A stretch of 64,000 nt of DNA from Pedobacter sp. N36a (GTDB lineage Bacteria > Bacteroidota > Bacteroidia > Sphingobacteriales > Sphingobacteriaceae): positions 1 through 64,000 of the forward strand of contig NZ_JACSZW010000006.1 of NCBI RefSeq assembly GCF_014472395.1. Reading direction: 5' to 3'. The notes under the pieces are model-generated. The model made no database searches. It was not told where the DNA came from and saw nothing but the letters and a program-made list of their open reading frames with translations. The translations under genes and the position numbers were made by a program. Below are positions 31,152-42,860 of the stretch, piece after piece. Every line of letters starts with the position of its first letter. Position 1 is the stretch's first letter.

Positions 31152-31838
31152 ATGGAAAAAGCAGTCTTTTATCCGCTAGGTGATTCCGCTATTGTGATCC
31201 AGTTTGACGAGGTAATCAGCCCGGAAATTCATCAGCAGGTAAGGGCGGTTGCAACTCATTTGGATGAATATGCTTTTGATGGATTCCTAGAATATACGCC
31301 CGCGTTTACTTCGGTAACGGTCTATTATCAGCCATGGGTAATCGATTATTTGACCATAAAGTCGCTGTTAGAAGAGATGCTGGAGGATTTAATGGAAGCA
31401 GTAGAAATGCCGGATTCGACCATCATTGAAATACCAGTAGTTTACGGAGGAGATCGCGGCCCTGATCTGGATTTTGTAGCCCGACAGCATCAATTGAGTA
31501 CCACAGAGGTCATCGCCCTTCATTCTGCCGCGGAGTATGTGGTGTATATGATTGGCTTTGCACCCGGTTTTCCTTATCTCGGTGGGATGAGCGAAAAGAT
31601 CACAGCCCCTAGAAAGGAAAAGCCCAGAGCAGTAATTCCTGCAGGATCTGTGGGAATTGCAGGTCTTCAAACAGGAATTTATCCTATAGAAACCCCTGGG
31701 GGTTGGCAGATCATCGGACAAACCCCGCTGCAATTATTTAAGGTCAACAGAGAAACCCCAGCATTGTTAAAGGCAGGAGACCGACTTCGTTTTGTGGCGA
31801 TCACTGAAACTGAGTTTAAGAAAATAAAAAAGAAATAG
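31152..31838 (+). CDS. pxpB: 5-oxoprolinase subunit B (KipI family)
   Basis: With PxpA and PxpC it forms the prokaryotic ATP-dependent 5-oxoprolinase that opens pyroglutamate to glutamate. The 228 residues match the AHS1/KipI family: FYPLGDSAIVIQF at the start, FTSVTVYY, YMIGFAPGFPYLGGM at about 130-145 and PAGSVGIAGLQTGIYPIETPGG, split here as SVGIAGLQTGIYPIETPGGW. The homologue in Bacillus (KipI) also inhibits the sporulation kinase KinA, not relevant here. Its TAG stop is immediately followed by the pxpC ATG with no gap. Confidence 0.93.
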   Translation: MEKAVFYPLGDSAIVIQFDEVISPEIHQQVRAVATHLDEYAFDGFLEYTPAFTSVTVYYQPWVIDYLTIKSLLEEMLEDLMEAVEMPDSTIIEIPVVYGGDRGPDLDFVARQHQLSTTEVIALHSAAEYVVYMIGFAPGFPYLGGMSEKITAPRKEKPRAVIPAGSVGIAGLQTGIYPIETPGGWQIIGQTPLQLFKVNRETPALLKAGDRLRFVAITETEFKKIKKK

Positions 31839-32804
31839 ATGGGAATTAAGGTCATAAAAGCGGGAATGCTCACTACGGTACAGGATCTTGGCAGAATTGG
31901 ATACCGTAAAGATGGGGTCATTGAAAGCGGAGCAATGGACAAAGATGCAGTCCTAATGGGTAATTTATTACTTGGAAATCAGGAAACTGAAGCTGCACTG
32001 GAATTTACCTTATCAGGACCATCACTTCTTTTCGAAGATGAGGCATTGGTGGCAATTACAGGTGCTGATTTATCGGCGGAGATTGATGGTAATGCGGTAG
32101 AAATGTGGCGCCCAATAGTAGTGCACAAGGGTGCTGTACTTTCTTTTGGCGAGGCTCTATCCGGTTGCTTTGCTTATTTAACCGTTCAGGGAGGTTTTGA
32201 TATCCCCCAGGTTTTGGGTAGTTATTCCACTTATCTTCGGGCAGGTTTTGGCGGTTTCGAAGGTCGTGCTTTAAAAAAAGGAGACCGGATTGCTTTTAAT
32301 CAGGACATTCCGGTTTTACCAGAACGATTGAACTGGAGCTTAAGCCGGAGCAGGGATACGCCATTAAATCCACTGGTAATTCGTGTGATTAAAGGCCCGG
32401 AATTTGAATTTTTCCAGGAGAAAAGTATTGCCGATTTATTGACTAAAGAGTTTAGTATCAGTAATGCTGCTGATCGGATGGGCTATCAATTGGAAGGTCC
32501 GCTTTTACAATTGAAAACAAATAAAGAAATGTTATCCTCCGCTGTTGCTTTTGGAACAGTGCAGGTCACCGCTGAGGGAAGTCCAGTTGTTTTAATGGCA
32601 GATCATCAGACCACCGGTGGCTATCCACGCATCTTACAGGTGCTCAGCGTTGATCTTGGGAAATTGGCCCAGCTGCGTCCAGGCGAGATAATTCAATTTG
32701 AAATCCTGACTTTAAACCAGGCACAAAAGCTGTTAGTAGCGAGAACTGAAGAAATAAATCAGCTGAAGCAAAGCTTAACTTTTAAATATAAAAACCATGG
32801 CTAA
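31839..32804 (+). CDS. pxpC: 5-oxoprolinase subunit C (KipA family)
   Basis: The biotin-dependent-carboxylase-like (AHS2) subunit of 5-oxoprolinase, 321 residues. Visible family features: [19 protein letters not shown] at the N-terminus, [41 protein letters not shown] and the C-terminal [20 protein letters not shown]. It overlaps the start of pxpA by eight bases, an arrangement expected for translationally coupled subunits of one enzyme. Confidence 0.93.
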
Positions 32805-33567
32805 AACTGTTAGGGTAGATCTGAATTGTGATATGGGCGAAGGCTTTGGCGCTTTTGACATCGGCAATGATGCCGCAATTATGCCTTTTGTTTCTTCCGT
32901 GAATATTGCCTGCGGATGGCATGCAGGAGATCCAGCGGTGATGAAAAGGACGGTCCGATTGGCCATCAGCCATGGAGTAGCGATTGGTGCACATCCTGGG
33001 CTTCCGGATCTTCAGGGATTTGGCAGAAGAGAAATGGCAATTACTCCCGAGGAAGCTCAGGATATGGTGATTTATCAGGTTGGTGCCCTTGATGCTTTTG
33101 TGAAAACCGAGGGTGGAAAGCTCCATCATGTGAAACCGCATGGTGCCTTATATAATATGGCAGCAAAAGATAAAGCGTTTGCTGAAGCTATCGCTATTGC
33201 AATTTATAAGATAGATCCAGGTTTGATTTTATATGGTCTTTCGGGTTCTGAGCTGGTTCTTGCTGGTGAACGCACAGGACTAAAAGTGGCCAATGAGGTA
33301 TTCGCAGACCGCACTTATCAGCCGGATGGAAGCTTAACCTCAAGAAAGCAGCCGGACGCCTTGATTACCGATCATTTTTTAGCCGTCGCTCAAGTGGTAC
33401 AGATGGTAAAAGCAGGGACTGTACTTTCTGCGCAGGGGACTTTAGTTCCTATCCAGGCAGATACGATTTGTATCCATGGGGATGGAAATTCTGCACTTAC
33501 CTTTGCTGAACAGCTTCAAAAGAGGTTGCTTAAAGAAGGATTGAAGATCAATGCTATCGGCAAATGA
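32797..33567 (+). CDS. pxpA: 5-oxoprolinase subunit A (LamB/YcsF family)
   Basis: The 256-residue LamB/YcsF subunit of 5-oxoprolinase. Family motifs: [19 protein letters not shown] at the start, [42 protein letters not shown] and [17 protein letters not shown]. The ATG overlaps the last codons of pxpC, and its own stop overlaps the ATG of the following transporter gene (ATGA). The order B-C-A-transporter differs from the E. coli ybgJKL-nei arrangement but resembles the Bacillus ycsF-ycsG-kip cluster. Confidence 0.94.
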
Positions 33568-34745
33568 AAGTTATAAAAAATAAAAGCGTCCTGATTGGGG
33601 CCGCATTTCTGATGGCTACCTCTGCGGTTGGCCCGGGATTTTTAACACAAACAACTTTTTTTACCCAGTCGCTGGGCGCTAGTTTTGGCTTTGTGATTCT
33701 GGTTTCTATCATTATAGATATTGGTGTGCAACTCAATATATGGCGCGTGATTGCGGTATCTGAGAAAAGAGCACAGGATATTGCCAATATGCTGCTGCCA
33801 GGATTAGGTGGCTTCATCTCTTTTTTAATTGTTTTAGGCGGGTTGGCCTTTAATATTGGAAATATCGCCGGTGCTGGTCTCGGCTTGCAAGCCTTACTGG
33901 GGGTTTCTGTGATTAACGGGGCGATCATTTCAGCTGCTTTGGCCGTCGCTATTTTTATGGTTCGCGAAGCAGGAAAGGCAATGGATCGCTTTGCGCAGTT
34001 CATGGGTTTTGTGATGATTATCGTGATCATCTATATCGCAATTACTTCCGCTCCTCCAATAGGAGAGGCTGCAATCAGAACGGTTTTACCCTTAAAAATA
34101 GACTTTGTAAGTATCGTCACCTTGGTTGGTGGCACGGTAGGGGGCTATATTACTTTTGCGGGAGGCCACCGGTTATTGGATGCTGGAATTAAAGGAAAAG
34201 AGGCTTTACCTTCCGTAAATACAAGTGCAGTGATGGGAATCTCAGTGGCTTCTCTAGTGCGTATATTTCTTTTTTTGGCTTCTCTAGGTGTGATTAGTCA
34301 GGGCTTAACGATAGATTCAGCGAACCCTACGGCCTCAGTATTTCAGCTGGCAGCAGGAAATCTGGGCTACCGTTTATTTGGATTGGTGATGTTTTCGGCT
34401 GCGGTAACCTCCGTAATTGGCTCTGCTTATACTTCGGTTTCTTTTGTCAAATCTTTTAGTCCTAAAATCAGAGACCATGAGCGGATGGTGATCATCGCTT
34501 TCATTGTGATCTCTACGTTGATATTTGTTGGGATAGGGAAACCTGTCAAATTGTTGATTCTGGCAGGTGTATTGAATGGATTTATCTTGCCAGTTACGCT
34601 GGCAACCATCTTATTTGCAGCTTATAAAAAGAAAATTGTAGGAGATTATAAACACCCTGCATGGCTCACTGTTTTTGGCGGATTAGTGGTGCTGATTGTG
34701 GGATTTATGAGCGTAAAAGTGCTTTATGATATGATTTTTGGGTAA
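33564..34745 (+). CDS. YcsG-like NRAMP-superfamily transporter of the 5-oxoproline operon
   Basis: A 393-residue membrane protein with about eleven spans and an NRAMP-like core, comparable with Bacillus YcsG, which also neighbours 5-oxoprolinase genes. The first helix reads [11 protein letters not shown], so the metal-binding aspartate and asparagine of DPGN are missing; the sixth-helix region reads [16 protein letters not shown] with no Met-Pro-His. It is therefore unlikely to move divalent metals by the usual mechanism. The four-base overlap with pxpA suggests it imports 5-oxoproline or a related compound. Substrate is inference only. Confidence 0.8.
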
Positions 34746-39127: not shown

Positions 39128-40171
39128 TTATAGTTTTACTTGCCGGATGATGTTTTTTACATTCAATTCAATGATATCTGTCATCGTTTCACATTCCAGA
39201 TAATGCTCATCCTTAAAATGTGCAGCCATCCCTAGTTTTAACTGATTGGTGTTTTCAACGGTGGTCAATACATCTTCATTGGACACATCTCTTAAATCTG
39301 CCAAACGGTGACGTTCACTTCGCACCCGATGGAGTATAGATGATTTTTCCTCCTGTTGGTATTGCAGAAAAGTTTTATCTGTCAATTGTTCCGTGCATAA
39401 TTTCACATAAGGGAAGTTCTCTTTAAAGAACTGCGGTAGGTATACCTTTAGATTTCCCTCATAGAATTGCTGGTCAAAATCTATGGCTCTGATTCTAAAT
39501 TGGATATCGTCAAAATCTGGCGTAATCTGTACCACAAAATTATAGGCACGCATATCTCCCAGCAACATCACCAGACACCGTTCGTTAAATTTCACGAACT
39601 CCTTTGCAATCCTGGTCTGGTTGTATTCCGGCTGGTGTAAATAGTTTTTTGCAAATACATCACCAGGGATTCCGGCAATATGTTCTTCCACCAGTGTTTC
39701 GCGATCTACCAGGTAATTCACTTGATTGGGCGATAGAATTTCTTCTAATTCCAGCCCATAAATTCGCGAAGCATCTGCCTTTTTTACATAGAAATAATCG
39801 TATACATCATTTAGTCGGTTCACAATCCGAATCCGGAAGGGGTGGGTATTACCAAAGGTGCAGTATTCAATTTTATCAATGTATTTGTGCTGCACAATGC
39901 GCAGATTTCCGGATGCTTTTAAGTTGGCATAAATCACTTTTAAGCCATTATGGAGATTTTCGATCCGCTCAGAAGAATAAATCGGTCCTTCCCATAAAGT
40001 GTCTTTACCGAATTTGTCCATGAGCGGAAAAGATTCATCGAACATCATCAGATCATTATAACTGATCGGGAGCCTGGATTCCCGCTGGTAACTTCTCAGG
40101 TATTTCTGTAGGGCAGGGGAAACCGGAAAAGTCGGTTTCTTACGTGATATTTTTACATCATTATCTTCCAT
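39128..40171 (-). CDS. Predicted protein-kinase-like fold protein
   Basis: A 347-residue cytoplasmic protein with no family name I recall, but with kinase-type landmarks in the right order. YDYFYVKKADAS has a beta3-type lysine (130/131). GLELEEIL has a helix-C-type glutamate. VEEHIAGIPGDVF (161-173) looks like a hinge. LLGDMRAYNFVV has the catalytic D206 and, five residues on, N211, the same spacing as HxDxxxxN of protein kinases and aminoglycoside phosphotransferases. AIDFDQQ (D231-D233) stands for DFG. A glycine-rich loop is not obvious. It is a lone minus-strand gene beside a sensor kinase. Fold call is inference from motif order. Confidence 0.6.
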   Translation of the reverse strand: MEDNDVKISRKKPTFPVSPALQKYLRSYQRESRLPISYNDLMMFDESFPLMDKFGKDTLWEGPIYSSERIENLHNGLKVIYANLKASGNLRIVQHKYIDKIEYCTFGNTHPFRIRIVNRLNDVYDYFYVKKADASRIYGLELEEILSPNQVNYLVDRETLVEEHIAGIPGDVFAKNYLHQPEYNQTRIAKEFVKFNERCLVMLLGDMRAYNFVVQITPDFDDIQFRIRAIDFDQQFYEGNLKVYLPQFFKENFPYVKLCTEQLTDKTFLQYQQEEKSSILHRVRSERHRLADLRDVSNEDVLTTVENTNQLKLGMAAHFKDEHYLECETMTDIIELNVKNIIRQVKL

Positions 40172-40856: not shown

Positions 40857-40890
40857 ACAGCAGGCCTTAAGGCTTGCTGTTTTGTTTTTC
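40857..40890 (+). terminator. Terminator hairpin overlapping the AraC stop codon
   Basis: ACAGCAGGCCTT pairs with AAGGCTTGCTGT (one mismatch) and is followed on the plus strand by TTTTGTTTTT. It serves plus-strand transcripts and may also end the convergent araC operon. Confidence 0.65.
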
Positions 40891-41877
40891 CAAAATATCT
40901 CCAGGCAATACCTGGAACATATTCTTATAAACTTTGGTAAAATAATTAGGACTGCTATAGCCCAATTCATAAGCCACTTCCTGAACACTTGAAAAATTTC
41001 CACTGCTTAAAAGCTGTTGTGCCAGTAATAGTTTTTCATTTAGAAAAAACTGATTTGGACTGTCTTTTAGTATCTTTTTGAAAAGAATTTTATACTTTGA
41101 AACGGACATTTCAGCCATATCGGCCATCTTTTGTAAACCTGGAAATTCGGAGAGCAGGTTTTCCATTAGGTATTCAGAAGTTAGAAATATACGTTCTATA
41201 TCCTGATTAGATAGCTTATTGATGATCGGTTCAAACCTGCTGGCCCGTTCCATCAGATAGCCCAATAAGTACGAAGCCGTGCTCTTTAGCTTTAACTCAA
41301 AAGAAGGACTGGTAAAATCATTTTCCTTTAGCTGGCTCAGCAGTATTTTGCTTCTGCTGTCGATGTGGCTATAGAACAATAGGGTGTTCTTAGACTCATC
41401 AAAAAGCAGGTTATTTGTTTCCAGATCTCTGGTAGATGCGGCCAGTTCTTTTAGGTAGCCTTTTTGGATTAATAGCCTCAAGCTATAAGAGCGCTTGCCA
41501 ATTGGCGGCATGATGACGCCTTGCATACTGCAGTCCATAAATCCCATTCCCAGTTTGGCATGGTACCCGGCTTTATGAACAGTATTGCCAATAATATGGG
41601 TCGTGATCTCATCACCTATGTCAAAATAAACCATGTAATAATTATGGTCTGTAGGGATTCGCGTGATGGCTACAGGAACCTTAAAGGTCATGTCCAGCAG
41701 CAGGACCGATAATCCAGGATTGACTTCCAGAAATATGGAGCCTCCATCAGCAATGTTTCCGGGCATGGTTAAAATCTTATTGTCTTTTAACGTTGCGCCA
41801 ATGCCAGCCACAATTTGCTGCTGCCATTCCGGGCCAAGGGTATAATGGTAGCAAAATTCAATCCTTTCCTCGGTCAT
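40867..41877 (-). CDS. AraC-family regulator, second of a tandem pair
   Basis: A 336-residue cytoplasmic regulator. The N-terminal 230 residues form an unknown sensor domain; the C-terminal AraC domain contains LQKMADMAEMSVSKYKILF and a second helix-turn-helix SSVQEVAYELGYSSPNYFTK, ending in the typical VYKNMFQVLPGD. It follows its paralogue after two bases and shares with it the layout HYTLGPEWQQQIVAGIGATL / QYGVELDWVAGLAAGIGGYV at the N-terminus, so the pair arose by duplication. No target can be named; both may act together. Confidence 0.88.
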   Translation of the reverse strand: MTEERIEFCYHYTLGPEWQQQIVAGIGATLKDNKILTMPGNIADGGSIFLEVNPGLSVLLLDMTFKVPVAITRIPTDHNYYMVYFDIGDEITTHIIGNTVHKAGYHAKLGMGFMDCSMQGVIMPPIGKRSYSLRLLIQKGYLKELAASTRDLETNNLLFDESKNTLLFYSHIDSRSKILLSQLKENDFTSPSFELKLKSTASYLLGYLMERASRFEPIINKLSNQDIERIFLTSEYLMENLLSEFPGLQKMADMAEMSVSKYKILFKKILKDSPNQFFLNEKLLLAQQLLSSGNFSSVQEVAYELGYSSPNYFTKVYKNMFQVLPGDILEKQNSKP

Positions 41878-41879
41878 AT

Positions 41880-42860
41880 TTAAAGTTGGCTCAAGTATTC
41901 TTTGGGTGGAACACCATAGGTGTTTTTAAATTGTTCAATTAGGTGTGTAGAGTCAAAGAAGCCGAATTTGTCGGCTATTTCTCCAATGGTAAATTGCCCT
42001 GTTTCCAGCATTTCTTTTGCATAAGAAAGCTTATTACTTTGGAAAAATCCGTGAGGAGTAATGCCGTTGATTTTTTTGAAAAGCTTTTTATACTTGGTTT
42101 CGGACATATTGGCTTCCCCGGCAAGGAAATGAATCCCTGGAAACGCATTTTCAATATGCGCACTCAGGTAAGCCTGAGAACTGATAATATGGCCTACATC
42201 TTCAGGGAATACCTGTTCTATGATGATTTCCTGATTGATGATTTGGTCCAGATAATCAGCGATGAGGCCATATACGGTGCCCGTAATATAAACGTCGTAT
42301 AAAGGCCCGGAAGGAGGTGCTTTTCTGAGCTCATTCATCAGCCACCAGGCATGATTGCTCATCCGATCAAATCTTACAATGGTATTGAGCTCGGAATTAA
42401 AGACAGATTCTACAATTTGATGGTGCTCCGGGATTTTTAATAAATATTGTTTCAATGCGCTTTTCTTAATGAAAATAGCAATCATATAGGTCGTTGATCC
42501 GGATTTTACCTGGAAATCACCGTTTAAACTTGCATCAAATATGCCCAGATTATATCCCCATTTTCCGAAAGATCTGGTTACCTCATTTAAAATGTGAATA
42601 GAATCACCCTCGCTGAGGTTAAAATAGAGTCCTACAAAGTCATTGCGTGTATTTCTTAATTTGTAGACTACATCTTGCCGATAGGTAACATCGATGATAA
42701 AAGCAGTTAGTTGATCATTAATCTGGAGGACATACCGATTGCCTTGCTGTGCCTCATCTGCAATGCGGATGTAGTTCCCCTCCACATAGCCGCCTATCCC
42801 TGCGGCGAGTCCTGCTACCCAATCTAACTCTACACCATATTGGTGGATTACTTCCTTCAT
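41880..42860 (-). CDS. AraC-family regulator, first of a tandem pair
   Basis: A 326-residue paralogue of the next gene. Its AraC domain is visible as FLAGEANMSETKYKKLFKKI and TIGEIADKFGFFDSTHLIEQ, with the closing FKNTYGVPPKEYL. The sensor half has no cupin signature that I can point to. The gene is first in a two-gene operon. Upstream (42991-43058) lie two to three degenerate direct repeats of about 20 bases, a layout used by AraC-type operators, so autoregulation is possible. Confidence 0.88.
   Translation of the reverse strand: MKEVIHQYGVELDWVAGLAAGIGGYVEGNYIRIADEAQQGNRYVLQINDQLTAFIIDVTYRQDVVYKLRNTRNDFVGLYFNLSEGDSIHILNEVTRSFGKWGYNLGIFDASLNGDFQVKSGSTTYMIAIFIKKSALKQYLLKIPEHHQIVESVFNSELNTIVRFDRMSNHAWWLMNELRKAPPSGPLYDVYITGTVYGLIADYLDQIINQEIIIEQVFPEDVGHIISSQAYLSAHIENAFPGIHFLAGEANMSETKYKKLFKKINGITPHGFFQSNKLSYAKEMLETGQFTIGEIADKFGFFDSTHLIEQFKNTYGVPPKEYLSQL

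Follow-up and report, generated by a model that had tools for sequence, protein, structure and literature searches.

The window, i.e., the whole stretch of 64,000 nucleotides of Pedobacter sp. N36a that was analyzed, harbors an open reading frame that runs from ATG to stop on the minus strand and encodes a protein of 347 amino acids (Table 1). Translation of the plus strand over the same interval is interrupted by many stops. The original prediction had delimited this interval exactly but left the strand unstated. The closest named homologue, from P. gandavensis, is 93% identical. Since the differences between both genes at the three codon positions amount to 28/13/123 and dN/dS is 0.042 (dN 0.038, dS 0.908), the gene is under strong purifying selection, far beyond what chance would give. 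The open reading frame is a genuine gene. It stands alone at its locus and is divergent from its upstream neighbor. Neither a signal peptide nor a membrane helix was seen by eye in the 347-aa sequence.

Table 1. Features of the gene for the predicted kinase-fold protein (positions in the window; residues of the protein)
Feature	Residues	Positions	Strand	Basis
Whole gene, PI3K-like protein of predicted kinase fold, 347 aa (P0001)		39128..40171	-	ORF, conserved homologues, dN/dS 0.042
Predicted N-lobe beta1-beta2, phosphate-binding-loop-like Y-C-x-F-G-N-x-x-P-F-R	96-113	39833..39886	-	model strands and conservation
Putative beta3 lysine K130 and helix C, K-x-x-D-x-x-R-x-x-G-L-E-L-E	130-144	39740..39784	-	model and conservation
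Hinge-like EEHIAGIPG	162-170	39662..39688	-	model and conservation
Putative catalytic loop G205-D206-M207-R208-x-x-N211	205-211	39539..39559	-	conservation in 47 homologues
Putative metal motif D231-F-D-Q and activation/substrate loop to P246-Q-x-F-K-x-N252	231-252	39416..39481	-	conservation
Predicted all-helical C-terminal lobe	254-347	39131..39412	-	secondary structure of both models

Within 3 kb of the gene, a hybrid histidine kinase is encoded along with two regulators of the AraC type, and the original prediction had linked the protein to these neighbors. Their proximity would fit a signaling protein kinase acting with them. However, such neighbors are generally absent beside the gene in other genomes, the gene belongs to no operon with them, and loci from class Bacteroidia display no conserved neighbor, even among close relatives. 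The sensor kinase and regulators therefore look incidental, and a role of the protein in their signaling is highly improbable. The two AraC-type regulators are themselves in tandem (40867-42860, minus strand) and have related N-terminal regions. A related pair is found near the homologous gene of P. gandavensis (L001), and the tandem genes thus appear to stem from a duplication that close relatives have retained. The window also carries, on the plus strand at 31152-34745, a 5-oxoprolinase operon (homologues of PxpB, PxpC and PxpA) followed by an NRAMP-like transporter gene, as recognized by eye.

The low overall similarity to known families that had been announced for the protein was borne out by all sequence searches. 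Neither the protein alone nor an alignment of 30 family members gave a match of meaningful score, the protein having been compared with Pfam, NCBIfam, PADLOC, PHROGs and PDB sequences; in particular, no PADLOC model of anti-phage defence was matched. The PF00069 profile gave no Pfam match, and the GxGxxG, HRD and APE motifs are absent from the protein. For PF00454, hmmscan detected no match to the protein at an E-value of 10, and none was found at E 1 at the loci of the family in a sample of 99 genomes. Judged by the curated cut-offs (27.1 bits for PF00454, 172.4 bits for TIGR03843), the protein is not a member of PF00454, and TIGR03843 has no match in the Pedobacter sp. N36a genome at E 1. 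Furthermore, a profile of 47 family sequences was compared with single sequences of Vps34, mTOR, PKA, UbiB and a HipA-like protein, a comparison that is weak because the templates are single sequences. All scores fell within the null distribution given by 417 unrelated proteins, including those of Vps34 and mTOR, which align in register with the profile at the catalytic loop. Since these three tests are negative, the link to PI3K enzymes rests on the fold and the motifs. Weak PF00454 matches in two related genomes correspond by eye to UbiB-like and HipA-like open reading frames and not to the kinase-fold family. Likewise, a weakly matching protein (L170, 22-25% identity to the query) looks like a different, lipoprotein-like protein and not a paralogue. 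The literature search found no paper on the present family.

The original prediction had proposed structure prediction with Foldseek comparison and was to be given up if the predicted structure lacked a two-lobed kinase fold. Two independent AlphaFold models, one of the window protein (from 30 sequences; mean pLDDT 83.6, pTM 0.82) and one of a Thermonema homologue with 57% identity (pLDDT 82.9, pTM 0.82), are both two-lobed, display the same kinase order of strands and helices and match kinases. Confidence is lowest in the active-site loops (pLDDT about 60 at residues 201-210 and below 50 at 233-240). In Foldseek searches against the PDB, the best matches of the window-protein model are PI3K-delta, PI3K-gamma and Vps34 (E 1.1e-4 to 4.4e-4), followed by Ser/Thr kinases, and Vps34 ranks first for the Thermonema model (E 1.8e-3); the TM-scores are low, at most 0.40. 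The top 1000 Foldseek chains were then re-aligned with VIA-align, whose best Z is usually 7-8 for models without a clear match. For the window protein, Z reached 12.6 for Tel1 (rmsd 4.6 over 279 residues), 12.4 for Vps34 and 12.0 for PI4KIIIbeta, and the best 50 entries are all PI3K, PI4K, Vps34 or PIKK (Tel1/ATM/SMG1) enzymes. The Thermonema model reached Z 11.0, again with the PI3K/PI4K/PIKK group only among the entries listed. The PI3K-type alignment spans residues 19-347 of the model. Because the Z-scores of 12.6 and 11.0 exceed the usual 7-8 and the same group was retrieved by both models, we regard the predicted two-lobed kinase fold as well supported and the PI3K group as the best structural neighbor of the modeled family. 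The nearest solved fold is thus the PI3K/PI4K/PIKK catalytic domain for both models, among the best 50 of the top 1000 Foldseek chains. Hence, the expectation of a protein kinase-like enzyme held for the predicted fold but not for the nearest group, which is not that of ordinary Ser/Thr protein kinases. The latter (MARK, DCLK, etc.) have the overall fold in common with the family (Foldseek E about 1e-3) but are outside the best 50 re-aligned entries, and their characteristic motifs mentioned above are missing from the family. Against viral proteins, Foldseek retrieved mainly giant-virus protein kinases, with low TM-scores.

The landmarks proposed from the sequence, i.e., D206-N211, the DFD at 231-233 and EEHIAGIPG, are in place and conserved in 47 homologues, the most distant of which are about 40% identical. 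K130, D206, N211, D231, F232, D233, E162, H164, G167 and P169 are invariant in these sequences, and E141 and E143 are nearly so (97% or more). The lysine had been proposed as K130 or K131; K130 is invariant, whereas position 131 is K, R, Q, V, T or I, which makes K130 the candidate ATP lysine. The conserved set can be written C104-x-x-G-N-x-x-P-x-R, K130-x-x-D-x-x-R-x-x-G-L-E-L-E, E162-x-H-x-x-G-x-P, L-G-D206-M-x-x-x-N211 and D231-F-D-Q. In the AlphaFold model, the beta1-beta2 segment is formed by strands 96-104 and 112-118, with C104, N108, P111 and R113 invariant, and the next segment by strand 124-131 and helix 134-146, with K130, D133, R136, G139, L140 and L142 invariant. The hinge-like motif is located between strand 159-163 and helix 170-176. 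Within class Bacteroidia, the catalytic loop usually reads GDMR[AS]YN (except in L174, GDMHSSN); those homologues that were read from outside this class have GDMH[SAT]GN instead. The key kinase residues are therefore all present: beta3 Lys, helix-C Glu (E141/E143), catalytic Asp, Asn five residues further and metal-binding Asp.

These residues suggest a mechanism. The phosphates of ATP would be held by the N-lobe loop YC-x-FGN-xx-PFR and by K130, which would pair with a glutamate of helix C (E141 or E143), and residues 162-169 may form the hinge for adenine. D206 would be the catalytic aspartate, helped by R208, which is a His in homologues read outside class Bacteroidia, as in the DRH of PI3K. 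N211 and D231 would bind Mg, and the segment 231-252 together with the helical C-lobe would bind the substrate. From all this, we infer catalysis, a cytosolic location, since no signal peptide or membrane helix was seen by eye, and a single conserved substrate, since segment 231-252 hardly varies across the phylum. This substrate is more likely a metabolite or one protein than a membrane phosphoinositide.

Vps34 and TOR chains of the PDB carry K-x-G-D-D-L-R-Q-D or K-G-H-E-D-L-R-Q-D, G-D-R-H-x-x-N and I-D-F-G. The family has in common with PI3K/PI4K/PIKK enzymes the proline of the phosphate loop, K-x-x-D-x-x-R at beta3, GD-x-[RH]-x-x-N and IDF, with the same K-to-R and D-to-N spacings as in the Vps34 and TOR chains, and its GDM[R/H]xxN corresponds to GDRHxxN of PI3K. 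The signature of PF00454 is thus partly kept (K-x-x-D-x-x-R, D-M-[RH]-x-x-N ... D-F-D versus K-x-[GH]-[DE]-D-L-R-Q-D, D-R-H-x-x-N ... D-F-G). However, the family differs from the PI3K group by DFD in place of DFG and by a Tyr in place of the acid of RQD (K+8). Moreover, its members are bacterial stand-alone proteins (347 aa here) that lack C2, helical, FAT or FATC regions. PF00454 kinases (Vps34, p110, PI4KIIIbeta, Tel1/ATM, TOR) have the two-lobed fold in common with the modeled protein, with no significant sequence similarity, and the protein probably functions in a similar way.

Alternatively, the match to PI3K could be convergent or incidental, and the protein could represent a stand-alone family of small-molecule or protein kinases of the APH, HipA, Bud32 or CotH sort. 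The negative PF00454, TIGR03843 and profile-sequence tests agree with this view, ordinary kinases and Bud32 rank shortly behind in Foldseek, and the GDMHSGN form found outside the class also resembles the HGDxHPGN loop of APH-type enzymes. Nevertheless, the best 50 re-aligned entries point to PI3K/PI4K/PIKK for both models, and the beta3 spacing K-x-x-D-x-x-R is similar to the signature of the PI3K group, so that we consider this alternative rather unlikely. APH, HipA and CotH are absent among the structure matches listed, but these lists are limited and exclude none of them. HipA-like and UbiB/ABC1 kinases belong to the same superfamily as the family but have no profile similarity to it, and their motifs and gene settings differ.

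Some kinase-fold proteins use ATP for other chemistry, as SelO does for AMP transfer. With such precedents, and with an invariant DFD that replaces DFG, the protein might transfer AMP, carry out a different nucleotidyl or ligase reaction, or be a regulatory pseudokinase. A pseudokinase is poorly suited to the conservation of K130, D206, N211 and D231 in 47/47 sequences, and we regard this whole group of explanations as improbable. The reading that we favor, and hold to be fairly likely from models and motifs, is that the protein is soluble, consists of a single domain and acts as an ATP- and Mg-dependent phosphotransferase; it would belong to the protein-kinase-like superfamily and be closest in fold to PI3K/PI4K/PIKK. 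The gene product is thus probably a real, uncharacterized bacterial kinase.

Homologues were found in 102 of 145 Pedobacter genomes (43 have none), in 184/301 genomes of the family-level sample and in 99/395 genomes of the phylum-wide Bacteroidota sample, nearly always as one copy per genome. Named carriers include Pedobacter, Sphingobacterium, Parapedobacter, Dyadobacter, Chitinophaga, Pontibacter, Hymenobacter, Rufibacter and Thermonema, and the phylum sample revealed a further group of homologues outside class Bacteroidia. The phages, plasmids and viral contigs that were searched contain no relatives. In the tree, Dyadobacter and Siphonobacter, both members of other families, are nested among Sphingobacteriaceae. 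A distant clade, in turn, is formed by further genera from the family of the window (g14, g18 and g21), and this arrangement suggests horizontal transfer of the gene. Two genomes carry broken copies with in-frame stops (G239:C15:75052-76085 and G543:C1:3158145-3158413), indicating that some lineages are losing the gene. Together with the 43 Pedobacter genomes devoid of the gene, they indicate that it is selected for but dispensable. Second, divergent copies are found in G179 (G179:C46:316012-317013, 522 bits, beside the main copy) and in G389 (L169, G389:C3, 40% identity), both possibly acquired from other clades.

The novel kinase-like family that had been postulated is therefore a family of its own: by its predicted fold, it is a new, broadly distributed member of the kinase-like superfamily whose closest fold is that of PI3K-type enzymes. 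The PI3K family has been classed as eukaryote-specific and, key motifs apart, as dissimilar in sequence to other kinases (PMC1821047). Hence, a conserved single-domain bacterial family with a predicted PI3K fold and a GD-x-H-x-x-N loop would offer a minimal reference for tracing how PI3K/TOR-type kinases arose. Many environmental Bacteroidota have a set of genes that are uncharacterized but under strong selection; the family contributes a probable enzyme to this set, and carrier genera such as Pedobacter are culturable and open to study.

The sole genomic hint to function is provided by the homologues outside class Bacteroidia. In 9 of the 11 homologous loci from there (L158, L159, L161, L162, L164, L165, L166, L167 and L168), spread over families f14, f26, f30, f40, f42, f44 and f54, the gene is directly downstream of bshA, a gene of bacillithiol synthesis, and on the same strand, bshA being identified by eye from the sequence and not by a profile; bshA was found in 0/80 loci of class Bacteroidia. 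This adjacency parallels that of the actinobacterial SCO1664 gene, which is invariably closely linked to mshC, involved in mycothiol synthesis (PMC4255298). By analogy, the family could be an old and widespread lineage of Bacteroidota that is akin to the PI3K/PIKK catalytic domain and serves low-molecular-weight thiol (bacillithiol) metabolism, a proposal that we regard as improbable. In several outside-class loci, the gene is also accompanied by genes that by eye encode Era and a PdxB-like dehydrogenase, and part of the adjacency to bshA is therefore general synteny. Since BshC is encoded by 384/395 genomes of the phylum sample, co-occurrence has no power as a test of the bacillithiol link. 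The TIGR03843/SCO1664 family of Actinobacteria (about 265 aa) is bacterial like the present one, and we take it to be distantly PI3K-like, the sole support being that PF00454 gives a weak signal in C. glutamicum. In L160, the second gene downstream of the homologue encodes a 477-aa protein with metallo-beta-lactamase and rhodanese-like parts that resembles a persulfide dioxygenase by eye.
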